From an uncultured Mucispirillum sp. (GTDB lineage: Bacteria > Chrysiogenota > Deferribacteres > Deferribacterales > Mucispirillaceae), in NCBI GenBank assembly GCA_944324465.1, contig CALUWI010000014.1, positions 1 through 64,000 of the forward strand: a stretch of 64,000 nt of DNA. The letters run 5' to 3'. The notes beneath the pieces are model-generated. The model searched no databases, had not been told where the DNA came from, and saw only the letters and a program-made list of their open reading frames with translations. Below, in pieces: positions 98 through 45,241 of this stretch (its first letter is position 1; each line of letters opens with the position of its first letter). The translations under genes were made by a program, and so were the position numbers.

Positions 98-1000
98 TTA
101 TTTATGTCTTAAAATCATAGCCATTGCTCTTGGATTAAATCTTGTTGGCTTTGTGTTTGTTTTGCTGCTGCAGCTTATTAGTTTTTCAACTCGCAGTCCT
201 GCTTCTTCTGCCATTAAAATAGGTTCACTTTCATTATTAAACTCATATACATGGTCTTTTTGAAAAGATTCTAATGCTGTTGAAAAATAAATAATGCCAT
301 CTTCTGCCAAATGGTGTTTAAGAATTTTAAATAATATTTTAGGATTCTCTAAATGTTCTGCAAGCATTGCCGCAATGATTCCTTTGTATGAGCCGCCTTC
401 TGATGCCTTGCTTAAGTCAAGGGCATCTTTTACCTGAAATGACACTCTGTCCTGCATACCTGAAGCATCTAATAATTTATTGGCAATATTAATTGCTGGA
501 GCACTAATATCAAGTCCGTCAACATGAATATCTTTTCTATAGTCAGCTGCCAGCAATCCTAAAACACCATGTCCGCATGCTAGTTCAAGGACTTTGCCAT
601 TTTCTGCAACATTATTTAAAAATTCATCTCTAAAAAAAGGAATATGGGAAACCATAGAAGGCCAAAAAGCATATATTAAAATAGCTGCCCACATATATGG
701 AACCATATATTTTTCATCATCATATACAGTAGCTTTTATGGTATCAAGCAGTTCTGGCATATACCTGCCATTTTTTTCATAAATTGCCTGAGCTCTTGAT
801 ACATTAATGCTGTATTCAGCATATCCTTTTGCTGTTGCTAAGAAAATATCTTCTCCATATGCTTTTTCACTCCATCTTGCAAGCGGGTCTAAAAGCCAAG
901 AGCAGTCTTGATTGTGTTTATCACACACATCTTTTGCTCCAACACCTACCATTTTAACAGAGTTCATAAGACTATCTAAAAATTTCTTTCCTTCGTTCAT
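98..1000 (-). CDS. Class I SAM-dependent methyltransferase, last gene of leftward biosynthetic operon
   Basis: The 300-residue protein has a Rossmann-type methyltransferase domain in its second half. Motif I reads VLELACGHGVLGL at about residue 137, followed by an acidic residue in VDGLDIS. The first ~130 residues form a separate helical-looking domain that is also present in the gene just upstream (shared pattern YDDEKYM...FFRDEFLNNV), so the two are paralogues. The start ATG at 1000 has an AAGGTG ribosome site 7 bases away. Position in the operon suggests it methylates the product or an intermediate of the acyl pathway, but the substrate (O, N or C atom) cannot be told from sequence. The methyltransferase class is certain; the role is inference. 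Confidence 0.85.
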   Translation of the reverse strand: MNEGKKFLDSLMNSVKMVGVGAKDVCDKHNQDCSWLLDPLARWSEKAYGEDIFLATAKGYAEYSINVSRAQAIYEKNGRYMPELLDTIKATVYDDEKYMVPYMWAAILIYAFWPSMVSHIPFFRDEFLNNVAENGKVLELACGHGVLGLLAADYRKDIHVDGLDISAPAINIANKLLDASGMQDRVSFQVKDALDLSKASEGGSYKGIIAAMLAEHLENPKILFKILKHHLAEDGIIYFSTALESFQKDHVYEFNNESEPILMAEEAGLRVEKLISCSSKTNTKPTRFNPRAMAMILRHK

Positions 1001-1937: not shown

Positions 1938-2930
1938 TTAATTATTTTCAAAAAATTCTTCTATAGGCACAGGTGACATAACAGAAGCATTTTGACTTAA
2001 ATATTTTTTTGCAAACTCTTTATTTTCTCCTGATAAACACTTATCTGTAAGAGTATTAAAATATTTATAGTTAAATCCATTTAATAAGATTTCTTTTAAT
2101 GGTTTTTCTTTTATATTACCCATTGTAGTATGGATATATACACATGGTAAAACATCTCCATAAGGATTAATATAGAAAAAGTTTACAGTAGGGCATCCAA
2201 CAACAAGCTCTTTCGTATTTAAAATATTCCAGTTATCTCTTATAATTTCTGGGTTATTTTTTCTTAATTCTTCTATTTTTTTACTATCTTCATCATTCAT
2301 CATAATATCGTAGTTACCTTTCCAAGCACCAGATGGAGATGCACAGTTTACAACAATACCAATATTTTTAGAGGCTGCAAATTTTGTAAAATCCTCTAGT
2401 TCTTTGCTTTGAGCATTATAGCTTCCTACTGTAATTGAAAAATATGCTCTCATTCCTGCCTTTTGAACATACTCTGCTGCTTTCATTGCTCTTTCATATA
2501 CACCTTTTCTGCCACGAAATTTATCGTGTTCTTCTGGTGTAAAACTGTCTATTGATATATCAACTTTATCAACACCAGCATCAGCTAATTTTTGAGCCAT
2601 TTGTTCATCAAGAAACCAGCCGTTTGTTGTAATATATGTATAAAAACGGGATGTATCAATAACCTCTAATATTTTAAATAAATCTTTATTCATTAAAGGT
2701 TCGCCACCTTGTATATCAAATTCATATACCCCTAGCTCATCAGCCTGGTCAGCAAGATTTTTTACATCATCAATAGTTAATGTTGGCTTGCCATAATCAC
2801 CAAGAGATGATTTTGTAAAACAATGCTGACATTTTAGATTACACTTATTATCATAATTTAATATAACAGACCATGGCGCAAATTCTTTTTGCCCCCCCCC
2901 CAATAAAGTTATTATTTTTATGTCTATCAT
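1938..2930 (-). CDS. Radical SAM enzyme, likely phase-variable; true start probably at 2979
   Basis: The radical SAM cluster motif is C-x3-C-x2-C (CNLKCQHC, residues 30-37 of this reading), followed by GGEPLMN and a C-terminal cysteine pair in VVGCPT...DVLPCVY, resembling a short SPASM/twitch region. The start at 2930 has no ribosome site. An ATG at 2979 is preceded by AGAGG 8 bases away, exactly where a start is expected after the upstream stop at 2992. Translation from 2979 runs into a run of ten G (2892-2901 on the plus strand) in the wrong frame and stops at 2851 after 42 codons. With nine or twelve G the frame would join and give about 346 residues. As sequenced the gene is probably off or weakly expressed from 2930. 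The reaction is unknown. Confidence 0.85.
   Translation of the reverse strand: MIDIKIITLLGGGQKEFAPWSVILNYDNKCNLKCQHCFTKSSLGDYGKPTLTIDDVKNLADQADELGVYEFDIQGGEPLMNKDLFKILEVIDTSRFYTYITTNGWFLDEQMAQKLADAGVDKVDISIDSFTPEEHDKFRGRKGVYERAMKAAEYVQKAGMRAYFSITVGSYNAQSKELEDFTKFAASKNIGIVVNCASPSGAWKGNYDIMMNDEDSKKIEELRKNNPEIIRDNWNILNTKELVVGCPTVNFFYINPYGDVLPCVYIHTTMGNIKEKPLKEILLNGFNYKYFNTLTDKCLSGENKEFAKKYLSQNASVMSPVPIEEFFENN
2892..2901. repeat. Run of ten C (ten G on coding strand), slippage tract in radical SAM gene
   Basis: Ten identical C:G pairs in very AT-rich DNA, lying between the well-placed start codon at 2979 and the radical SAM domain. The two sides are in different frames at the present length. Such runs in coding DNA are classic slipped-strand phase-variation tracts. 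Confidence 0.85.
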
Positions 2931-2991
2931 AATGTTTTTTAAATTTTTCCATCATTCGTGGTTTTTTACCAAAAATCATAATTATTACCTC

Positions 2992-4155
2992 TTAAATTAT
3001 ATCAATTACTCTTGAAAGTTCTTTTATAATATCATATCCATCCCATATAACATTCATATCAAGAGCCATACCTACAGGAACAATCCTGTCTACTCCTGAT
3101 ATGTTTTTATTAATAAGTGATAAAATGATTTTATTTTTATCTATACCAAAGTATGTTATTGTTTGGCATTTATCTCTAATAGTATCGGCAATTTCACTTA
3201 ATTCTTCAATAGAATATTCATAAAATAATCCAAATCTGCCATTTAAATTATCCTGTATTTTCTCAGTTTCAAGGCAGTATATTTCATTGCCATACATTTC
3301 TACTCTTTTTACATTATCTTGTATAATATTTGTAAGCATATCTGTATATTTATCAACTACTTTAATAGGTGCTAAATCATATTTTTCTGCAGAATGTTTT
3401 ATGCTGTTCCAAAATATATTTTTTGCTTTTTCTATATTTTCACCATACCAGAATATAATTTGTGGAGAAGAACATGCATTCTGGTCAAATAAGTATGTGT
3501 CATTATAAAATTTATCTGATAATTTTTGCAGTTCACTATCATTTAAATCAAGTACAGCATCACTGTTTAATATACATACAGAATACCTGTCTGCAAAAAC
3601 TATTTCTACACCTCTGATTTTAATTGGAAATTTTCGTATGTGAGTAATAGTTTTATCTCCGCCCCATATAACTCTGCCGTCAGAAACTGATGATATATAT
3701 GCAGTTATTTCATCAATATTAGAATATCTTATAAATGCATTAGTATCTTTAATTTGTTTAAATTTTTCTTCTTGGAAAAGTTGTTCTATTTCACTGCATA
3801 CAATGTTAACCTGTTCATATTCTTTGGACGAAATTTTAACAATATTTGTATTGCCTGATAAAAGACCAAAAAGAAAAGAGTAAGCAAAATTAATTGGAAC
3901 ATTAGATGGTGCTATATGAAAGATTAATCCTCTGCCTATTCTATAATGTTTATCTTCAAAGCTTTCTTTTAGTCTTAATATGTTTGCTTTTCTTATATAA
4001 AATCCAAAAGATACTATATCAGGATATTCTCTGTATTTCATTAAAGATTTAGAAAGACAATCTAAAAATTCTACTGCTGTATCGTTGTATGGCAGGGCAG
4101 GGCATACTGTTACATCTCCACCAGCCATATATTTAACATTATTCAAATGTATCAC
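2992..4155 (-). CDS. LuxC-like acyl-CoA/acyl-protein reductase (aldehyde-forming)
   Basis: The 387-residue protein matches the LuxC family, which reduces a fatty acyl group, carried as a thioester, to the aldehyde with NADPH. Seen directly are the conserved HIAPSNVPINFAY stretch (residues 80-92, nucleotide-binding side of the aldehyde-dehydrogenase-like fold) and the nucleophile cysteine in DQNACSSPQ (C228). It overlaps the LuxE-like gene upstream by 17 bases, as expected for a translationally coupled pair whose products form a complex. There is no luxAB in the window, so the aldehyde serves another purpose. LuxC-LuxE pairs outside light organs are known from lipid and polysaccharide gene clusters; the product here is unknown. 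Confidence 0.88.
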   Translation of the reverse strand: MIHLNNVKYMAGGDVTVCPALPYNDTAVEFLDCLSKSLMKYREYPDIVSFGFYIRKANILRLKESFEDKHYRIGRGLIFHIAPSNVPINFAYSFLFGLLSGNTNIVKISSKEYEQVNIVCSEIEQLFQEEKFKQIKDTNAFIRYSNIDEITAYISSVSDGRVIWGGDKTITHIRKFPIKIRGVEIVFADRYSVCILNSDAVLDLNDSELQKLSDKFYNDTYLFDQNACSSPQIIFWYGENIEKAKNIFWNSIKHSAEKYDLAPIKVVDKYTDMLTNIIQDNVKRVEMYGNEIYCLETEKIQDNLNGRFGLFYEYSIEELSEIADTIRDKCQTITYFGIDKNKIILSLINKNISGVDRIVPVGMALDMNVIWDGYDIIKELSRVIDII

Positions 4156-5185
4156 TGCAGCCCCTCACTTCAGCTTTTTTTATTCTGCCAATTATTTTAA
4201 ATGTTTTACCAAGCCTTCCACAAGGACAGTCATCTTCTCCAAGAAGAATACCTGCATCTTCACTTAATAAGATATGTCCTGGATAACTTTTTGGAATAAC
4301 AGACATTAGTTCAATATATCCTTCTTCACCAATACTGTTAATTGAAAAATCTCTGTAGTTTAATATATTAATATCAGAATAAATAGATGTATGAAACCGT
4401 CCATGCTCACATTCCATGAAAATAGAGCCTGTTTGTTCCACCATTCCATAATAATTATAGACTCTTTTAAAACCTGCTGTTTCTGCTAATGACTGTTTAA
4501 ATTCATCATTTGATACTGCCTGATTAATCAGCTTTTTCCAGCCTCCGCCATGAAGAATAAAACCATTATTTTTTGGTAAAGTAATATTTAATTCTAATAG
4601 TTTTTTGTAAAAAAACTCCCATATCATATATGTAAAACCAAAAATAAAAATATTTTCGTCTTTGTGTTTTTCATAGAATTTCTGAACTGTATCTATATCA
4701 AGATTCATATTTTCATCAAGAGCATAAGTAATATCTGTCCCAAACATAGAAAATCCAAGAATACCTGCACCTCTTGCTGAAAACATATTTCTATCTTTTA
4801 AAACAGCTTTAGTATCAATAATAAGCATAGGCATTCTTTTACCGCCAGTAAAGTCTGACATTATGGCTGCTAATACTTTTGTCTGCATTGCTGCAGTTTC
4901 TTTATCAAGAAATATTTTTGAAACTTTCTGGCCACTTGTTCCTGAAGAAGTCATTGTTTTTACAATATTTTCGCTGCTGACACTTTTTAATTCAAAATCT
5001 TTAAAAAGTCTTACCGGAATAAATGGCTTTTTATTGTTTAGAGCATCACATATTTTTCTATACTCATTACAATTTTCATAATGATAAAGAGATAATTCTG
5101 TAATAATATCGCCGAAAATTTTTTCTTTAGTTATTTTATCCAGTTGAAATGGCTTGTATTTAAAAAGTTCTTCTCTGCTAATCAT
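4139..5185 (-). CDS. LuxE-like acyl-protein synthetase/acyl transferase
   Basis: The protein (348 residues from the ATG at 5185) belongs to the LuxE branch of adenylate-forming enzymes. The ATP-binding loop TSSGTSGQK lies at about residues 79-87. LuxE activates a fatty acid with ATP and passes the acyl group to LuxC. The C-terminal end has the CPCGRLGK stretch and a last cysteine in RGCSD, where LuxE proteins carry their acyl-accepting cysteine; that correspondence is inferred. The ATG at 5185 follows AGG by 6 bases and is preferred to a TTG at 5191 that overlaps the stop of the ligase gene. It sits between the AMP ligase and LuxC-like genes in one operon. Confidence 0.87.
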   Translation of the reverse strand: MISREELFKYKPFQLDKITKEKIFGDIITELSLYHYENCNEYRKICDALNNKKPFIPVRLFKDFELKSVSSENIVKTMTSSGTSGQKVSKIFLDKETAAMQTKVLAAIMSDFTGGKRMPMLIIDTKAVLKDRNMFSARGAGILGFSMFGTDITYALDENMNLDIDTVQKFYEKHKDENIFIFGFTYMIWEFFYKKLLELNITLPKNNGFILHGGGWKKLINQAVSNDEFKQSLAETAGFKRVYNYYGMVEQTGSIFMECEHGRFHTSIYSDINILNYRDFSINSIGEEGYIELMSVIPKSYPGHILLSEDAGILLGEDDCPCGRLGKTFKIIGRIKKAEVRGCSDTFE

Positions 5186-5187
5186 AA

Positions 5188-6594
5188 TCAACCTAACAAA
5201 CTGTATTGTATTTTACCAGTAGAATTGCGTGGTATTTCTTTTATAATCTCAATACTGTATCCACTTGGATGAATGTCTAATGTATCTTTTAATAATAATG
5301 CAGCTTTATTTTTCATATCTTCTGAACATACATATATTTTTATTTTATCATCAACACCACTGCATGCACATAAACAGCCGTTTATATTTAATTTATTTTC
5401 AAGTTCATCAAGATTTATTCTGTTGCCAAAAACTTTTAAAAAGCGTTTTTTTCTGCCTGTAATATAGAAAAATCCATCTTTATCGTAGTATCCAATATCC
5501 CCTGTATGCAGAATACCGTTATTTTCATCACCAGTATGTAAATCGTAACAGCTTTCTGCATATCCCATACATACATTACTGCCTTTATAAATCAGTTCTC
5601 CAGTTTCATTGCTGCTTAGATAATTATTATTTTCATCAACTACAAATAACTCTCCATTTGGAATTGCTTTACCAATACTGTCTGTTTTTTCATATAAATA
5701 TTTTGGCTCTAAATAAGATATTCTTGCTGTTGCTTCAGTCTGTCCATACATTTTAAAAAATTGAATATTTTTTTTACTGCATTCTTCTAAAAAATATTGT
5801 GTAAGATTTGTATTTAATCTTCCACCAGCTTGAGTGATGTATGAAATGTTTGGAATATTCATTCTTTCAAATTTTAGCCTTTGCATCATCTCATAGGTAT
5901 ATGGCACTCCACCAAAGGTTGTTGCATTTGTTGCACTTAAAAGCTGCCAGAATTCTCGTTGAATAATAGAATATTCTGATAACATAATTGAAGCACCTGA
6001 TAATATATGTGTATTAATTATTGATAAGCCATAAGAGTAACTAAAAGGAAGTGTTGTAATAACTCTATCATTTTCTGAAATATTTAAATACTGTATAATT
6101 GATTGAGCATTAGAAAGTATATTCTTTTTTGACAGTCTTACATATTTGTTTGTTCCTGTTGAACCTGATGTTGTTAATAATATAGATAAATCATGGTGTA
6201 TATCATAATCTGTATCATATATGGTTTCTATAAGAGAGTAATCAAAAATAGAATATATTTGTTTAGAAGTAATATTTTTTATATTTTCATCAAAACTATC
6301 CTGAGTGCTTAGGAAAATATATTTAGGCTTATAATTATTGATTATAGAAAGAAGTTCTGTATTTTTTTTAGGCTTATTTACAAGCAATGCAGGAATATTA
6401 TGCTCAACTGCTGAAAGATAAGAAATAATAGTAGCTGCATTGTTCCCAGTTACTATAAGACATAAAATATTCTTAGTATAAAATTTATCTGCAAATTTTA
6501 TACCATATTCAATTATATCACTATAATTGCAGGTATTATTTTTTTCAATAAATGCGATATTATTTCTGAATTGGTTAAGCCTTTCAAAAATCAT
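5188..6594 (-). CDS. AMP-forming acyl/aryl-ACP or -CoA ligase (ANL superfamily)
   Basis: The 468-residue protein has the ANL phosphate-binding motif TSGSTGTNK (residues 142-150), the adenine-site motif YGQTEATARIS, the HTGDIGYYDKDG aspartate motif and the C-terminal lysine in RNSTGKIQ (K461). It therefore activates a carboxylic acid as an adenylate and transfers it to a thiol. The neighbouring ACP gene, 8 bases upstream, is the obvious acceptor. The stop of the gene overlaps the start region of the LuxE-like gene. No clear ribosome site precedes its ATG, so translation is probably coupled to the ACP. The acid substrate cannot be read from the sequence. Confidence 0.88.
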   Translation of the reverse strand: MIFERLNQFRNNIAFIEKNNTCNYSDIIEYGIKFADKFYTKNILCLIVTGNNAATIISYLSAVEHNIPALLVNKPKKNTELLSIINNYKPKYIFLSTQDSFDENIKNITSKQIYSIFDYSLIETIYDTDYDIHHDLSILLTTSGSTGTNKYVRLSKKNILSNAQSIIQYLNISENDRVITTLPFSYSYGLSIINTHILSGASIMLSEYSIIQREFWQLLSATNATTFGGVPYTYEMMQRLKFERMNIPNISYITQAGGRLNTNLTQYFLEECSKKNIQFFKMYGQTEATARISYLEPKYLYEKTDSIGKAIPNGELFVVDENNNYLSSNETGELIYKGSNVCMGYAESCYDLHTGDENNGILHTGDIGYYDKDGFFYITGRKKRFLKVFGNRINLDELENKLNINGCLCACSGVDDKIKIYVCSEDMKNKAALLLKDTLDIHPSGYSIEIIKEIPRNSTGKIQYSLLG

Positions 6595-6602
6595 AATAAA
6601 AA

Positions 6603-6845
6603 TTAATTAAAATCAACACCAAGCTTTGTAAGAATTTCTTTTCCTTTTTCATAGGAACTAAGGTCAATAATATCATCAATTTCAAACTGTACATTAAATG
6701 CTTCTTCTAAAGAAGCAATTAAATTCATATGTCCGATAGAATCCCAAAGAGGAATACCTTGAAATGTTAGTGTTGTAACATCAATACTGTCATCTAATTC
6801 AAAAACTTTTTTGTATGTGCTGCTGTATTTTTCTAAATTGGTCAT
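6603..6845 (-). CDS. Acyl carrier protein, first gene of leftward operon
   Basis: An 80-residue acidic protein with the phosphopantetheine site DSIGHM (serine 36), the ACP signature DSx. It is diverged from the primary fatty-acid ACP (which reads DSLD or similar) and belongs to the stand-alone ACPs of specialised pathways. It is first in the leftward operon, behind a recognisable promoter (6878-6905), with AGGAT 5 bases before its ATG. It likely receives the acid activated by the ligase encoded next to it. Confidence 0.88.
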   Translation of the reverse strand: MTNLEKYSSTYKKVFELDDSIDVTTLTFQGIPLWDSIGHMNLIASLEEAFNVQFEIDDIIDLSSYEKGKEILTKLGVDFN

Positions 6846-7897: not shown

Positions 7898-8980
7898 ATG
7901 TTTTTTAAGTTTAAAAATAAAAAAATAACACAGATGCTTTCTATTGTTCCTGATAAAATAATAAAATTTGAAGATGAAGTAAAACAGTATAATTTCCCAG
8001 AAAAAAGAACTCTTAGAATGAAAGAGATAATGGGTTTTAATGAACACAGATTGTTTGATGAAGGTGTTATATTATCAGATGTTGCAGTGTTTGGCTTAAA
8101 ATATATGTTTGACAAAAAAATGATTAATCAGGATGATATTGATGCTCTTATTTATGTTTCAAATTCTCATGATTATATACTTCCACCAACTTCTAACATT
8201 ATACAGGGACGCCTTGGTTTAAAAACAGATATGATATGCCTTGATATTGAACAGGCTTGTGCAGGTTTTATTATAGGTCTTTTGCAGGCTTTTATGCTGC
8301 TTGATACTGGTGCAGTAAAAAAAGCAGTATTGATTACTGGAGATACTTTAAAAAGTAAAGTATCAAAAAAGGATAGAAACAGCTGGCCAATTGGTGGAGA
8401 ATCATGCAGTATTACTGTTATTGAAAATGGCGACAGCAGTGATATTTTTGCTTCTGTTTATATGGACGGTACAGGGTATGAAGCGTTAATTATCCCAGCA
8501 GGCGGGCTTCGTATGCCGTCAAATCAGGAAACAGCTAAAATGCGTATTTTAGAAGATGGCAATGAAAGGTCGCTGGACCATTTCCTTATGGATGGAAGTG
8601 GTGTTTTTAATTTTGTTCAAACAGTTGCTCCTGTTGAAATAAAAAAAGCAATGGATTTTGCAAATGTTACAGATAAAGATATTTTTGCATATTTATTTCA
8701 TCAGCCAAATAGATTTATGCTTGAAAAGCTGGCAGATAAAATGGGTATATCTATGAGTAAAATGCCTGCTAATGTAGTAGAAAATTTTGGAAATTCAAGT
8801 GGTGGAACAATACCTTTAGCTACCACCTTTAATTATAGTGATGTTTTTGTAAAAGAAAAACATAAAGTATGTTTTTCTGCATTCGGTGCAGGTCTTACTT
8901 GTGCATCTATTATAATGGATTTAGGTAAACTAGAGCATTGTGAGTTAATTGAATATGACAGTGATAGAAAAAGTAATTAA
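7898..8980 (+). CDS. 3-oxoacyl-ACP synthase III (KAS III, FabH-like)
   Basis: A complete KAS III of 360 residues with all three catalytic residues: C121 in QACAG, H268 in FHQPN and N299 in FGNSSGG. These enzymes condense an acyl-CoA or acyl-ACP starter with malonyl-ACP. It is a specialised copy rather than the housekeeping fabH. It sits next to its own ACP and reductases, and a second KAS III is encoded 1.7 kb downstream (similar around DALIYVS and GRLGL). GGAG precedes the ATG by 9 bases. The 3' end overlaps the MBL-fold gene by 26 bases. Starter preference is unknown. Confidence 0.9.
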   Translation: MFFKFKNKKITQMLSIVPDKIIKFEDEVKQYNFPEKRTLRMKEIMGFNEHRLFDEGVILSDVAVFGLKYMFDKKMINQDDIDALIYVSNSHDYILPPTSNIIQGRLGLKTDMICLDIEQACAGFIIGLLQAFMLLDTGAVKKAVLITGDTLKSKVSKKDRNSWPIGGESCSITVIENGDSSDIFASVYMDGTGYEALIIPAGGLRMPSNQETAKMRILEDGNERSLDHFLMDGSGVFNFVQTVAPVEIKKAMDFANVTDKDIFAYLFHQPNRFMLEKLADKMGISMSKMPANVVENFGNSSGGTIPLATTFNYSDVFVKEKHKVCFSAFGAGLTCASIIMDLGKLEHCELIEYDSDRKSN

Positions 8981-9590
8981 TGATAAATTTAAAGCAAATT
9001 CATATTTTTTTATAGAAAATAATGACTGTGTAATTATTGACTGCAATATTAAAACTATTGAATATTTATATAAAAATAAACTAAATCCTGCTTATATGTT
9101 TTTAACTCATGAACATTTTGACCACATAGAAGGAGTAATGCAAATAAAAAAGGAATATCCAAATATTCTTATAGTTTCATCATCTTTAACTGCAAATTTA
9201 ATAAAAGATAAAAAAAGCAATATGTCTTATTATTCAGATGGTATAGGATTTGAAGAAGACGGGGTTGATATTTATACAGAAGACAAATCAGCTTTTCATT
9301 TTAATAAGCATATTATTAATACATACAGCACTCCAGGTCATACTGAATGTGGAATAGTTATAGAAATAGGGCACTGCTTATTTACAGGCGATACTGTTTT
9401 AGATGTAAAAACACCAGCAACTCTTTTAAACTCATCAAAACAGCAGCTAATAGCAAGTCTTGATTTTATAGACAATCATTTTGATAATGATACAGTTTTT
9501 TATCAAGGACATGGTGAGCCTTTTCTAAAAAAAGACTGGAATAAAGATATATCTATTGGAACTAATAAAAAAATAAAAAATAATATTTGA
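8955..9590 (+). CDS. MBL-fold metallohydrolase (possible thioesterase)
   Basis: The 211-residue protein has a complete metallo-beta-lactamase metal site: THEHFDH (H52, H54, D56, H57), H129 in TPGHT, D146 in FTGDT and H186 in QGHGE. In this fold such proteins are glyoxalase II-like thioester hydrolases among other things. In the alkylquinolone pathway the MBL protein PqsE works beside the KAS III-like PqsD as a thioesterase, so a thioesterase releasing product from ACP is a reasonable guess here. The ATG at 8955 is preferred over a TTG at 8949; both overlap the end of the KAS III gene, implying coupling. Confidence 0.85.
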   Translation: MTVIEKVINDKFKANSYFFIENNDCVIIDCNIKTIEYLYKNKLNPAYMFLTHEHFDHIEGVMQIKKEYPNILIVSSSLTANLIKDKKSNMSYYSDGIGFEEDGVDIYTEDKSAFHFNKHIINTYSTPGHTECGIVIEIGHCLFTGDTVLDVKTPATLLNSSKQQLIASLDFIDNHFDNDTVFYQGHGEPFLKKDWNKDISIGTNKKIKNNI

Positions 9591-9600
9591 GAGGTTGTTA

Positions 9601-9819
9601 ATGAATAAGGAAGAATTTTTAGAGAAATTACAAGATGTTTTAGAAAGAGATGAAGAAATTACTGAAGATATGGTTTTAGAAGATATAGAAGAATGGGATT
9701 CTCTTTCTGCAATGGCTTTAATGGCTTTTTTTAATAATGTATTATCTATTACTTTACTACCTGCAGAAGTGAGAGAAATGAAAACTGTAGCAGATATTTT
9801 ACATAAAGCAGGCATATAA
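9601..9819 (+). CDS. Acyl carrier protein, second in the locus
   Basis: A 72-residue acidic protein with the phosphopantetheine site WDSLSAM (serine 34). It starts at the ATG at 9601, 6 bases after GAGG; a TTG at 9595 lies too close to the ribosome site. It is distinct from the ACP of the leftward operon, so the locus has one ACP per operon. Its neighbours (KAS III, SDR) suggest it carries the growing or condensing chain. Confidence 0.87.
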   Translation: MNKEEFLEKLQDVLERDEEITEDMVLEDIEEWDSLSAMALMAFFNNVLSITLLPAEVREMKTVADILHKAGI

Positions 9820-9835
9820 TCAGGGAATATTTTAT

Positions 9836-10594
9836 ATGGATGAAAAAAGTTATATAATAATTACTGGTGCATCTTCAGATATGGGTGCAGCATTATCTAA
9901 ACAGTTATTATCCGCACATAATTTAATACTGCTTGATATAAATGAAAATTCCATTTTAAATACAGTATCTATGCTTAAAAGTATAGATACACAAAGTAAA
10001 ATATTATATTTTTCAATTGATTTTAATGATATTTCTGCTGTTGGTAAAACTTTTCAAGATTTTTTAAAAAAACATGATATATCAAATATAAGCGGCTTAG
10101 TTCATATTGCAGGTATTGCTCCTGTTCTGCCTTTAAAATCAACAGAAATAGATGACTGGTATAAGATTTTTAATATTAACTTATTATCAGCAGTAGAGAT
10201 TATTAGAGTGTTGATGAAAAAACAGTATAAGCAGAGCATGAAATCTGTAGTATTAATTTCAAGTGTTGCAGCACATTTTGGTGTAAAAGCTCAGATAATG
10301 TATTCTGTTTCAAAAGCAGCAATAGAAGCATTTGTAAGAGGTGCTGCCGTTGAGCTTGCTCCAATAAGGGTTAATGCGATTGCTCCAGGCAGAGTAAAAA
10401 CAAACTCTATGGCAGTATTTATTGATGACACTGCAGAAAAATTTGAGAGTAAGCACCTTCTTGGTAGTGGAAGTGCAGAAAATATTGCTGATATCCTTTA
10501 TTTTCTTTTATCAGAAAAATCATCATGGATTACTGGCCAGACATATATTATAGATGGCGGCGTATCTGTAAATGCTCTAATGAATGAGAAATAA
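9836..10594 (+). CDS. Short-chain dehydrogenase/reductase, FabG-like
   Basis: A 252-residue classical SDR with the cofactor motif TGASSDMG (residues 10-17) and the catalytic set S142/S143, Y156 and K160 (MYSVSK), then NAIAPGRV and the C-terminal SSWITGQTYIIDGG typical of FabG. Between ACP and KAS III genes it most likely reduces a 3-oxoacyl-ACP to the 3-hydroxyacyl form. The cofactor loop has D and M where most FabG have G and I, a small departure. AGGGA lies 9 bases before the ATG. Confidence 0.87.
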   Translation: MDEKSYIIITGASSDMGAALSKQLLSAHNLILLDINENSILNTVSMLKSIDTQSKILYFSIDFNDISAVGKTFQDFLKKHDISNISGLVHIAGIAPVLPLKSTEIDDWYKIFNINLLSAVEIIRVLMKKQYKQSMKSVVLISSVAAHFGVKAQIMYSVSKAAIEAFVRGAAVELAPIRVNAIAPGRVKTNSMAVFIDDTAEKFESKHLLGSGSAENIADILYFLLSEKSSWITGQTYIIDGGVSVNALMNEK

Positions 10595-10657
10595 TAGTGA
10601 CTATAATTTTTGCATATCAAAATTTTATATATAGTTACAAGATTTGAGGAGGTAAAT

Positions 10658-11806
10658 ATGAAACAAAATCAATTTAGTCATGCTGTTATTAAGGGTATAA
10701 GTTATGTTATACCATCTAATATTCATAAAACATTAGACGATAAAATAGAATATTTTGGAAATGACAAAAAAAAATTAAATCGTGCATGTAAAATAATTGG
10801 ATATGGAGATACCTATATATCTCCTAATGGATTAACAGCAGTAGATATATGTGAATATGCAGCAAATGACCTGATAAAGAATATAAACATAGATATTTCT
10901 ACAATTGATGCAATCATATTTGTTTCACAGTCACCAGATTATAAAGCACCTTGTTCAGCACAAGTGTTACATGGTAGATTAGGATTATCTCAGAGTTGTA
11001 TTGCTATTGATATAAATCAAGGATGTACTGGTTATATTTATGGTTTACACACTTCATTTGCATATATTGAAAGTAAAGTTTGTCAAAGAGTTTTATTGTT
11101 GGTTGGAGATAATGCATCAGAAGATTATGTTAGTTCTGGGAATAAAACAATAAATTTATTATTTTCAAGTTCTGGTAGTGCAACTTTAATTGAGTATTCA
11201 GAAGAATGTCATCACTCTTATTTTACAATTGACACAATTGGAAAATATTACGATACTTTAATTGTTCCTGCTGGCGGAGAGAGAATACCTTTGAAGAATG
11301 GCTTATATGAACAGATTATATATGATAAAGATGGTAACCCTCATAGATTAACAGATGCATTTATAGATGGTTTATCAACATTTGATTTTACTATAACCAG
11401 TGTTCCAAAACATATTAAAGAATGTATTATGTATAGTAATATAAACAATATTGATTTTTTTGCAATTCATCAGGGGAACAAACAGATTGTAAAATCTATT
11501 GCATCAAAAGCAGATATAGATATTGACAAAATATTTCTTGATACATTTACAAGATATGGTAATACATCGAGTACTTCTTGTTTAAGTAATTTATTGGATA
11601 AATACGAGCCAGAATATCTAAATAATAATTCTTTAAACATTTGTTTTGTCAGTTTTGGAATAGGCTTATCTATAGCATCTGCAATTATCCGTCTTAATAA
11701 TATTTATTCATCTGGTATCATATTGCATCATTTTGATAATATTCAATCACAAGATGATGCTATTAAATTTTGGAAAGAAAAAATTGAGAATTACACAGCA
11801 GATTAA
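10658..11806 (+). CDS. Second 3-oxoacyl-ACP synthase III-like enzyme
   Basis: This KAS III-family protein (382 residues from the ATG at 10658) keeps the triad: C123 in QGCTG, H271 in AIHQGN and N302 in RYGNTSS. The start is set by a strong GAGGAGG 5 bases before the ATG; an in-frame reading back to 10610 adds only unlikely residues. It is paralogous to the KAS III at 7898-8980 but clearly diverged. It is set apart from its neighbours by 63 and 176 bases of AT-rich spacer, so it may have its own expression or a later arrival. It may run a second condensation or act as an acyl-transferring ketosynthase. Confidence 0.88.
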   Translation: MKQNQFSHAVIKGISYVIPSNIHKTLDDKIEYFGNDKKKLNRACKIIGYGDTYISPNGLTAVDICEYAANDLIKNINIDISTIDAIIFVSQSPDYKAPCSAQVLHGRLGLSQSCIAIDINQGCTGYIYGLHTSFAYIESKVCQRVLLLVGDNASEDYVSSGNKTINLLFSSSGSATLIEYSEECHHSYFTIDTIGKYYDTLIVPAGGERIPLKNGLYEQIIYDKDGNPHRLTDAFIDGLSTFDFTITSVPKHIKECIMYSNINNIDFFAIHQGNKQIVKSIASKADIDIDKIFLDTFTRYGNTSSTSCLSNLLDKYEPEYLNNNSLNICFVSFGIGLSIASAIIRLNNIYSSGIILHHFDNIQSQDDAIKFWKEKIENYTAD

Positions 11807-11982
11807 AATATTATACTATATAATTTGAATTGATTTATAATATATATAATATAATCATATATAATACATTAACAAAATACCTGTATAAACTAGGATATTA
11901 ATGTGATAAATTAACAATTACATTTTTATTATTTTAAATGAATATAGAGGTATTATATGTATAATGTAAATAGGAGTATTTA

Positions 11983-12741
11983 ATGATTTCCTTTTCAAAA
12001 GAAGATATTTTTTTAGTAACTGGTGCATCATCAGGTATTGGCAGAGCATCTGCTTTGCAGTTAAATGAACTTGGTGCATCTGTAATTATTACTGGTCGCA
12101 GGCAGGAAAAGCTGCAGGAAGTAAAAGATGAGGCAGTAAATTCTGAAAATATTTTTATTGAAAGTCGTGATTTAGCTGTAGATATTGACAGCCATGCAGA
12201 ATGGGTAATTGAGTTATCTAAAAAATATGGAAAATTAAAAGGTCTTGTTCTTTCTGCTGGTGTATCATTTGTAAAACCATTAAGCATAGTTGATTATTCA
12301 TCCTTAAAAACGGCACAGGATATTTTATTAAATGCACAGATTATGCTTATAAAAGGTTTTTCTAATCGTAAAGCACATACAGGGCAGTCTTCTGTTGTGA
12401 TAATTGCATCAGATGCAGCACTTTATGGTGTTAAAGGTTTACTTGAATATAGTTCTGCAAAAGCTGCATTGATTACTGCAGGAAAGGTTATGGCTAATGA
12501 ATTATATTCACGCTCAATTCGTGTGAATACAATATCTCCAGGTCTTATATTAACCCCTATGGTTGAAGAATCCGTAAAAAAAGGTGAAACAAATGCTGAT
12601 GCTGTTCAATATGCAGGTAAGCCTGAATATGTAGCTAATATGGTATCCTTTTTACTTTCAGAGAAAGCATGCTGGATAACAGGGCAGAATATTATTATTG
12701 ATGGCGGTAACTCTCTGCCAAATATACATAACAAATTCTAA
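11983..12741 (+). CDS. Short-chain dehydrogenase/reductase, second FabG-like enzyme
   Basis: A 252-residue classical SDR with canonical VTGASSGIG (residues 12-20), S143, Y156 and K160 (YSSAK), NTISPGLI, and the C-terminal ACWITGQNIIIDGG. It has the same length and same ending as the SDR at 9836-10594, so the two are paralogues. It is the last rightward gene before the housekeeping region, and AGGAG precedes the ATG. Two reductases with two synthases suggest either two reduction steps or two condensation cycles with different substrates. Confidence 0.87.
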   Translation: MISFSKEDIFLVTGASSGIGRASALQLNELGASVIITGRRQEKLQEVKDEAVNSENIFIESRDLAVDIDSHAEWVIELSKKYGKLKGLVLSAGVSFVKPLSIVDYSSLKTAQDILLNAQIMLIKGFSNRKAHTGQSSVVIIASDAALYGVKGLLEYSSAKAALITAGKVMANELYSRSIRVNTISPGLILTPMVEESVKKGETNADAVQYAGKPEYVANMVSFLLSEKACWITGQNIIIDGGNSLPNIHNKF

Positions 12742-43691: not shown

Positions 43692-44879
43692 ATGAATAAA
43701 ATAGAAAAAATGATAAAAGAATTATGCCCTAACGGAGTAGAATGGAAGAATATTACAGATATTGCAGACACTTTTATTGGATTAGTGACTACAATGACAA
43801 AATATTATTCTAATACTGGAACACCATTGATATTTAATTCATCAATTAAAGAAAATAAGTTTGTTTTTAATAAAATGATATTTTTAGATACTAAATTTGC
43901 AATGAAACATAAAAATAAAATGCATAAAAAAGGTGATATTATAACAGTTCATACTGGAGATGTAGGAACATCTGCAATTATTGATGATTTATTGGATGGA
44001 AGTCTTGGTTTTGCAACAATAGTCAGCAGAATAAAAAATAATTCAAAAGTAGATAATAAGTATGTATGTTATTTTCTAAACTCTGGTATAGCAAAATTTC
44101 AAATATATAATAGAATAAAAGGCGATAGGGACAATCTTAATTTAAAAGATTTTAATCAAATTCTTATCCCTATTCCGCCGCTTGCGGTGCAAGCGGAAAT
44201 TGTCAAGATACTTGACAATTTTACCGAGCTAACCGCCGAGCTAACCGCCGAGCTAACCGCCGAGCTAACCGCTAGAAAAAAGCAGTATGAATATTACAGA
44301 GATAAACTTTTATCTCTTGATAACATTCTAAAACGGGGGGGGGTAACTAAAAAATTAGGGGAAGTGTGTGAGTTTGTAGTAGGTGGAGATATACCTAAAA
44401 ATAAAATTTCTAAACATAAAACAGATAATTATAATATTCCTGTTTATAGTAACGGAACAGATAAAAATATGTTGTATGGATACACAGGTATAGCAAAAAT
44501 AAATAGAAAATGTGTTTCTATCTCTGCTAGGGGAACGATAGGATACTGTCATTTGCATGTAACTCCTTTTTATCCTATTGTTAGGTTAATATGTGCTATT
44601 CCAAATGAAAATATTTTAATAGCAGATTATTTAAAATATAGTTTAGATTGTATTAACATAAAAGGGACTAATTCTGGCATTCCACAATTGACTACACCAA
44701 TGGTTAATAATATCCAAATCCCTATTCCACCCCTTGAAGTGCAGCAAGAGATAGTTGATATATTAGATAAATTTGAAAGTATGTGTAATAGTTTAACAGA
44801 AGGCTTGCCAGCAGAGATTGAAGCGAGAAAAAAGCAATATGAATATTATAGGGATAAGTTATTAAGTTTTACAAATTAA
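43692..44879 (+). CDS. hsdS: Type I specificity subunit HsdS with two slippage elements
   Basis: A 395-residue HsdS with two target-recognition domains (roughly residues 15-150 and 220-350). Each is followed by a conserved helical spacer ending in RKKQYEYYRDKLLS. The first spacer holds four ELTA units (residues 179-194) coded by perfect 12-bp repeats. Right after it lie residues R215-G216-G217 coded by a run of nine G. Loss or gain of one G gives a stop at once (TAA) or after two further codons, leaving a one-domain protein of about 217-219 residues. Repeat-number change would alter the spacing between the half-sites, as in EcoR124I versus EcoR124II. As sequenced the gene is full length. Confidence 0.95.
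   Translation: MNKIEKMIKELCPNGVEWKNITDIADTFIGLVTTMTKYYSNTGTPLIFNSSIKENKFVFNKMIFLDTKFAMKHKNKMHKKGDIITVHTGDVGTSAIIDDLLDGSLGFATIVSRIKNNSKVDNKYVCYFLNSGIAKFQIYNRIKGDRDNLNLKDFNQILIPIPPLAVQAEIVKILDNFTELTAELTAELTAELTARKKQYEYYRDKLLSLDNILKRGGVTKKLGEVCEFVVGGDIPKNKISKHKTDNYNIPVYSNGTDKNMLYGYTGIAKINRKCVSISARGTIGYCHLHVTPFYPIVRLICAIPNENILIADYLKYSLDCINIKGTNSGIPQLTTPMVNNIQIPIPPLEVQQEIVDILDKFESMCNSLTEGLPAEIEARKKQYEYYRDKLLSFTN
44199..44221. repeat. Inverted repeat in hsdS spacer
   Basis: AATTGTCAAG and CTTGACAATT are perfect 10-base arms around ATA, just before the 12-bp repeats. It encodes EIVKILDNF. Together with the GC-rich repeats this patch looks foreign to the surrounding base composition. Confidence 0.6.
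44226..44273 (+). repeat. Four 12-bp tandem repeats (ELTA) in hsdS
   Basis: GAGCTAACCGCC occurs four times in a row (last copy ends in T). The unit is 8/12 G+C in an AT-rich gene. Unit length is a multiple of three, so copy-number change lengthens the spacer by four residues without a frameshift. Confidence 0.95.
44335..44343 (+). repeat. Run of nine G in hsdS
   Basis: A homopolymer at codons 215-218. Nine G keeps the frame open; eight G gives an immediate TAA, ten G gives a stop two codons later. A phase-variation tract like the one in the radical SAM gene. Confidence 0.9.
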
Positions 44880-44950
44880 AAGGCAAGCCTGATTAAAGGG
44901 CAGGAAGCCCGCCTTTAGTAAGCACCTAAACGAATTTATTTCGTAGGTGC
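44802..44950 (+). repeat. 149-bp direct repeat, first copy (hsdS 3' end)
   Basis: The last 78 bases of hsdS plus downstream DNA, identical over 149 bases to 44996-45144 (period 194). Similarity continues with two mismatches for about 20 more bases. Confidence 0.9.
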
Positions 44951-44955
44951 ATTTG

Positions 44956-44984
44956 AATAAAAAGTCTAGGATGGACTTTTTATT
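44956..44984. repeat. Hairpin with 7-nt loop (empty-site form)
   Basis: AATAAAAAGTC and GACTTTTTATT, 11-base perfect arms, loop TAGGATG. Compare 45150-45241. Confidence 0.8.
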
Positions 44985-44995
44985 ATGGATAATAG

Positions 44996-45073
44996 GGCTT
45001 GCCAGCAGAGATTGAAGCGAGAAAAAAGCAATATGAATATTATAGGGATAAGTTATTAAGTTTTACAAATTAA
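44996..45073 (+). pseudogene. Duplicated 3' fragment of hsdS
   Basis: A 78-base copy of the hsdS end, coding LPAEIEARKKQYEYYRDKLL plus four residues and a stop. It has no start or recognition domain. It arises from the 149-bp duplication and could act as homology for recombination with another hsdS cassette. Confidence 0.85.
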
Positions 45074-45144
45074 AAGGCAAGCCTGATTAAAGGGCAGGAA
45101 GCCCGCCTTTAGTAAGCACCTAAACGAATTTATTTCGTAGGTGC
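44996..45144 (+). repeat. 149-bp direct repeat, second copy
   Basis: Perfect match of 44802-44950. The downstream copy of the next hairpin differs from the first by a 63-base expansion of its loop. Confidence 0.9.
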
Positions 45145-45149
45145 GTCTG

Positions 45150-45241
45150 AATAAAAAGTCTAGGACGAGCTTGCGAGGACTGCCAAATTCCCGAGTGAGT
45201 AGCGAGGAATTAGAATTTGCACAGGCTTAGGACTTTTTATT
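45150..45241. repeat. Same hairpin with 70-nt loop containing a module (filled-site form)
   Basis: The identical 11-base arms (45150-45160 and 45231-45241) enclose 70 instead of 7 bases. The added DNA includes GAGGAC, arms CAAATTC/GAATTTG (45184-45190, 45213-45219) and the 22-base core also found at 14.3, 14.4 and 31.6 kb. Confidence 0.8.

Follow-up and report, generated by a model that had tools for sequence, protein, structure and literature searches.

The closest described counterparts of the locus considered here are the poly-G contingency genes of Campylobacter, from which a switch on a radical SAM gene is already known in kind. To our knowledge, Campylobacter lacks a mismatch repair pathway. 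In the sections of PMC6321876 considered, the core phasome of C. fetus includes two radical SAM genes with poly-G tracts (CFT03427_1545 and _1558), Campylobacter poly-G lengths peak at 9 and then at 10, and the DUF2172/M28 proteins of the Cj1295 group are phase-variable and known or putative flagella-modifying factors (table 1 of that paper). A second counterpart is the acyl cassette of flagellin glycosylation islands, which in the parts of the source papers considered consists of genes for an acyl carrier protein (ACP) and an AMP-dependent synthetase, followed by luxE and luxC (Aeromonas group II, PMC7874193; Enterobacteriaceae, PMC4875605); the term "radical SAM" does not occur in the available text of either paper. 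Among the matches listed from the open-access literature, for which some of the searches were weak on this subject, no paper was found on phase variation in Mucispirillum or Deferribacterota, and none on a Mucispirillum tract set with respiratory-enzyme targets. The words "phase" and "homopolymer" are absent from the main text of the M. schaedleri genome paper (PMC5285517).

The window, i.e., the whole analyzed stretch of 64,000 nucleotides, belongs to a Mucispirillum sp. genome (G000), and G003 is another species of the same genus; L-numbers denote poly-G tract places and C-numbers denote contigs of the respective genome. At the start of the window lies an operon with the gene order ACP, AMP-forming ligase, LuxE, LuxC, radical SAM, methyltransferase, methyltransferase, together with a divergent block of acyl-biosynthesis genes:

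98..1000, minus strand, methyltransferase 2, the last gene before the contig start
1019..1927, minus strand, methyltransferase 1, assigned by profile search
1938..2930, minus strand, radical SAM/SPASM frame as sequenced from the internal ATG 2930, 330 aa
2851..2979, minus strand, frame as sequenced from the ATG 2979 preceded by a ribosome site, 42 codons, with its stop beyond the tract
2892..2901, minus strand, G10 homopolymer tract, 26 codons past ATG 2979; G9 at the same site in G003
2988..2993, minus strand, ribosome site AAGAGG, overlapping the luxC stop (2994-2992) and conserved in G003
2992..4155, minus strand, LuxC-type acyl-CoA reductase (PF05893, E 1.2e-29)
4139..5191, minus strand, LuxE-type acyl-protein synthetase (PF04443, E 2.1e-53)
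5188..6594, minus strand, AMP-forming acyl ligase (PF00501, E 4.8e-39)
6603..6845, minus strand, acyl carrier protein, first operon gene (PF00550, at its cut-off)
7898..12741, plus strand, divergent acyl-biosynthesis block (two KAS III, MBL-fold hydrolase, ACP-like and two SDR genes)
7898 and 10610, plus strand, KAS III genes of the block
8949, plus strand, MBL-fold hydrolase of the block
9595, plus strand, ACP-like gene, assigned by eye
9836 and 11983, plus strand, SDR genes, the latter assigned by eye

The locus shares with Campylobacter, as far as PMC6321876 was considered, a poly-G run of 9-10 in a radical SAM gene and the same length peak, and the Campylobacter core phasome likewise contains methyltransferases, an SDR, and the DUF2172/M28 Cj1295 group. 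However, it belongs to another phylum and to a genome having both mutS and mutL, and the radical SAM genes are alike in family name. The order ACP, synthetase or ligase, luxE, luxC is identical to that of the island cassette in the part of PMC7874193 considered, and the islands are likewise described there as having highly variable genes beside luxC, although in them luxC is followed by the glycosyltransferase fgi-1, whereas here it is followed by the radical SAM gene. A further difference is that the operon shares no contig with flagellin or maf-like genes: six Flagellin_N matches in G000 fall on C8, C9, C16, and C20 and a single maf-like match on C2, whereas the operon lies on C14, at a contig end, with no flagellin or maf gene nearby. 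The G003 operon block occupies the same place, beside ffh, but in the opposite orientation, and adjoins a DUF4910/DUF2172/M28 gene, a methyltransferase, and an acetyltransferase; the divergent block has no match in the G003 stretches compared. Since the cassette gene order and the DUF2172/M28 neighbor in G003 resemble flagellar-modification systems, our best guess for the operon is acyl-type tailoring of a surface glycan, of which flagellin would be the likeliest carrier.

The radical SAM domain (PF04055, E 4.5e-29) covers residues 28-184 of the 330-aa frame, so that the entire catalytic domain is encoded downstream of the tract, and the CxxxCxxC motif reads CNLKCQHC. The SPASM match (PF13186, E 3.6e-7) is over its cut-off and covers only profile positions 7-52 of 67. 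The protein has the CxxxCxxC motif and the C-terminal SPASM match in common with the SPASM-type enzymes NirJ/AhbD, MoaA, SkfB, and PqqE; unlike these, it scores far below every NCBIfam cut-off listed, and a PDB sequence search returned only general radical SAM relatives. The operon genes are packed too closely to accommodate a precursor peptide gene between them, and no tRNA, tmRNA, or Rfam family reached the gathering score in the window.

The sequence-only reading had proposed that this gene is phase-variable, with the only well-placed start leading into a run of ten G and out of the radical SAM frame. Exactly ten G are indeed present on the minus strand, from 2901 down to 2892, and the frame entered at ATG 2979 behind AAGAGG runs through them to a stop at 2853-2851. 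With AAGAGG overlapping the luxC stop, ATG 2979 is placed for translational coupling. Upstream of the core, the radical SAM frame as sequenced contains, apart from ATG 2930, only a TTG at 2903. Duplex energies were calculated with an assumed 16S tail sequence rather than one read from G000, against a background of 770 internal ATGs from 23 window genes. The energy at ATG 2979 (-7.1 kcal/mol) is equaled or bettered by 1.6% of these, and that at ATG 2930 (-3.3 kcal/mol) by 23%; the latter is thus ordinary for a chance ATG, and this in-frame codon has no clear ribosome site, in agreement with the earlier reading. The tract itself is not a product of chance, since nine-G words occur three times in the window vs. 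0.01 expected from shuffles; G or C runs of 6 to 8 are absent from the window.

Among 39 genomes of the order, a protein search found the radical SAM protein at high identity only in G000 and G003 (one of nine congeners), the other 37 having merely distant radical SAM proteins. LuxE is confined to the same two of 20 genomes, and a database search for further orthologs gave a single distant match (28% identity). The tract comparison is therefore one of two species, each represented by one assembly. In G003 the tract has nine G, and a 345-residue frame is open from the counterpart of ATG 2979, in agreement with the prediction that one G fewer would join the good start to the radical SAM frame; the counterpart of ATG 2930 lies in another frame, which soon meets a stop. 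The one-G difference is the sole internal gap in a 240-base alignment of the luxC end and the gene start, with two substitutions between the ATG and the tract. After the tract, the cores share 72% amino acid identity with a dN/dS of 0.213, which indicates purifying selection, albeit the weakest in the operon (81-98% identity and dN/dS 0.02-0.17 for the six other genes). In the six aligned operon coding regions, with the radical SAM gene represented by the part after the tract only, none of the 14 glycine codon pairs having GGG on at least one side has it on both (0/14). All three GGG codons of the tract are kept in G000 and G003, which would not be expected from drift alone.

Runs of this kind are numerous in the genome. 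G000 contains 35 runs of at least eight G, with two, 24, eight, and one of 8, 9, 10, and 11, respectively, and seven runs of six; seven-G runs are absent, because the 113 heptamer matches exactly fill the 35 longer runs. Runs of at least eight number 37 in G003 and 49 in G006. At a threshold of at least nine, 29, 31, and 34 runs were counted in G001, G005, and G007, 64 in G011 from another genus of the family, 3, 0, and 4 in three genomes of a third genus, and 0 to 7 in ten genomes of other families of the order. A thirty-G run near a contig start in G013 (C87:59-88) is probably an assembly artifact. A single mechanical rule, applied to the unaltered sequences, places 10 of the 35 G000 tracts in frame, 10 out of frame, and 5 near a 3' end, with 10 being noncoding or short; the corresponding numbers for the 37 tracts of G003 are 13, 7, 2, and 15. 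Since the rule demands an SD-like motif, a few coding tracts are counted as short. Fifteen tracts could be paired between G000 and G003 by alignments reaching the tract from both sides. Net length differs in four of the pairs (by 1 for radical SAM, 1 for L058, 2 for L065, and 3 for L064 at 4405). The pair L052/L089 (G9/G10) was rejected as a length change, as a substitution beside the tract accounts for it with no net change.

The radical SAM tract is very probably a poly-G contingency locus with slipped-strand on/off switching, a reading that the genome comparison supports well, short of proof. It is a coding-frame run of at least eight G, far above chance; whether the well-placed start and the downstream frame are joined depends on its length; and this length differs at the same site (G10 in G000 vs. 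G9 in G003). The proposed switch is supported in that G003 shows the predicted other state and the genome holds many like tracts, many of them out of frame. Slipped-strand mispairing would alter the number of G, and this number would join or separate start 2979 and the radical SAM core, the assembled ten-G state being predicted to be off or nearly off for the enzyme. The tract would presumably change length at a high rate within populations, and initiation at ATG 2930 would be negligible. That one tailoring step of the pathway is switched, as had also been suggested, fits the operon context, with the product being the conjectural part: the operon may make an acyl-type surface-glycan decoration, most likely carried by flagellin or another glycoconjugate, one variant of which would need the radical SAM enzyme. 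Counting against a switch, 11 of the 15 tract pairs show no net length change, and an in-frame ATG 2930 precedes a core entirely beyond the tract, so leaky expression is possible. Loss of mismatch repair was ruled out as the source of tract instability, as both the MutS1 and MutL models are over cut-off in G000; general hypermutability therefore does not explain the tracts.

Several other explanations of the ten-G sequence can be weighed against a switch. The gene might be expressed as sequenced from ATG 2930 or TTG 2903, yielding an enzyme whose N-terminus differs, and the tract would then affect no more than the initial residues or the quantity of enzyme; the 330 residues open from 2930, with the catalytic domain starting at residue 28, would allow this. 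We nevertheless consider it improbable, as the ribosome site at 2930 is no better than that of many chance ATGs, the G003 counterpart is out of frame, ribosomes from 2979 pass over the codon, and it arises from the main-frame codons TAT GAT and need not be a start. Still less probable is a fixed level of expression through slippage of RNA polymerase or ribosomal frameshifting at the run, with no switching at the DNA level. Ten-G runs can be slippery for both polymerase and ribosome, but the length in G003 is a plain in-frame one, and half of the other assessable tracts of the genome are in frame and do not need recoding.

The sequence could also differ from the true gene, which would then have nine G and be always on: it comes from a single assembly, and homopolymers are error-prone on some platforms. 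We regard the chance of such an error as very small, because 9 and 10 are the peak tract lengths in three genomes (G000, G003, and G006), and because the pairs L055/L106 and L069/L088 have equal tract lengths in G000 and G003 and are out of frame in both, which random error would not give; even with nine true G, the tract would remain a likely switch. The lowest probability of all is assigned to a decaying pseudogene in which the tract length is a simple disabling mutation. The frame is broken from the good start, and the core is the most divergent in the operon (72% vs. 81-98% identity), yet it is without stops, retains intact radical SAM and SPASM matches at a dN/dS of 0.21, and is preceded by a tract that is preserved while GGG codons elsewhere are not.

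Apart from the radical SAM gene, G000 has 34 tract places, of which 20 plus 3 were subjected to Pfam scans and 11 were noncoding, short, or left out. Among the matches are molybdopterin oxidoreductases, in several of which a Tat signal precedes the tract. The remaining matches are to N6/N4 DNA methylases, HsdS, MBOAT acyltransferases, glycosyltransferases, rhamnan synthesis proteins, a sulfatase, and a DUF4910/DUF2172/acetyltransferase fusion; for several tract genes, Pfam gave no match. The molybdopterin oxidoreductases (~1000 residues) carry the poly-G near the start, often just past the Tat signal:

L052, L055, L066, L069, L075, and L076, molybdopterin oxidoreductase tracts of G000, in frame in 2/6
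L087, L088, L089, L091, L094, L096, and L106, molybdopterin oxidoreductase tracts of G003, in frame in 2/7 (L089 assigned by a 96% DNA match to L052, without a Pfam scan)

The N6/N4 DNA methylase genes with poly-G are found at L053 and L073, one of them being in frame and the other not. At L064 (G000:C9:108600-127070), seven poly-G tracts occur within 18 kb together with glycan genes (FdtA, RgpF, GT2, GT9, and MBOAT). The acetyltransferase/DUF4910/DUF2172 fusion (L063, tract at G000:C8:118990) lies ~4 kb from a flagellin match at C8:122706.

A further set of tracts, read as poly-C on the other strand, is located between a TTGACA and a TATAAT-like box (22/121 tracts: 5/35 in G000, 8/37 in G003, and 9/49 in G006):

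L054, L060, L071, L072, and L074 in G000, plus 17 in G003 and G006, poly-C promoter-spacer tracts

The rule allowed one mismatch in TTGACA, within 4 bases of the tract, and up to two in the TATAAT-like box; under a looser rule, 355 of 127,920 window positions match. The spacer is mostly 15 bases at C9. Nineteen of the 22 tracts are followed within 400 bases by an ORF of 100 or more codons that has an SD-like motif, and many of the starts are lipoprotein-like. Neisseria porA is controlled by a promoter-spacing switch, which the poly-C between -35 and -10 boxes resembles here.

We lean toward the view that Mucispirillum-like gut Deferribacterota have a full, undescribed phasome of ~35-50 poly-G/C tracts per genome. 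Some of its tracts would act through the reading frame, namely those in the genes for the radical SAM enzyme, glycan enzymes, DNA methylases, HsdS, and a family of Tat-exported molybdopterin oxidoreductases, in which the run directly follows the signal. Others, as poly-C separating the -35 and -10 boxes in the promoters of lipoprotein-like genes, would act through promoter spacing. If so, the radical SAM switch would be one bet among several concerning surface chemistry and respiratory electron acceptors, and a Campylobacter-like contingency system would be placed in a gut bacterium of another phylum having mismatch repair genes. Were the molybdopterin oxidoreductases to switch too, cells of one mucus population would differ randomly in the electron acceptors they can use.

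The window contains a second tract gene, for an HsdS-like specificity subunit (43692-44879), with an in-frame G9 at 44335-44343 between two target recognition domains and, close by, a 12-base repeat in four copies (44224-44272) encoding TAEL units. Variation in the tract and in the TAEL repeat could each change specificity. The tract is kept between G000 and G003, while large portions of the recognition-domain sequence cannot be aligned. A nearly perfect 194-base direct repeat (44802-45165) extends over the end of hsdS.
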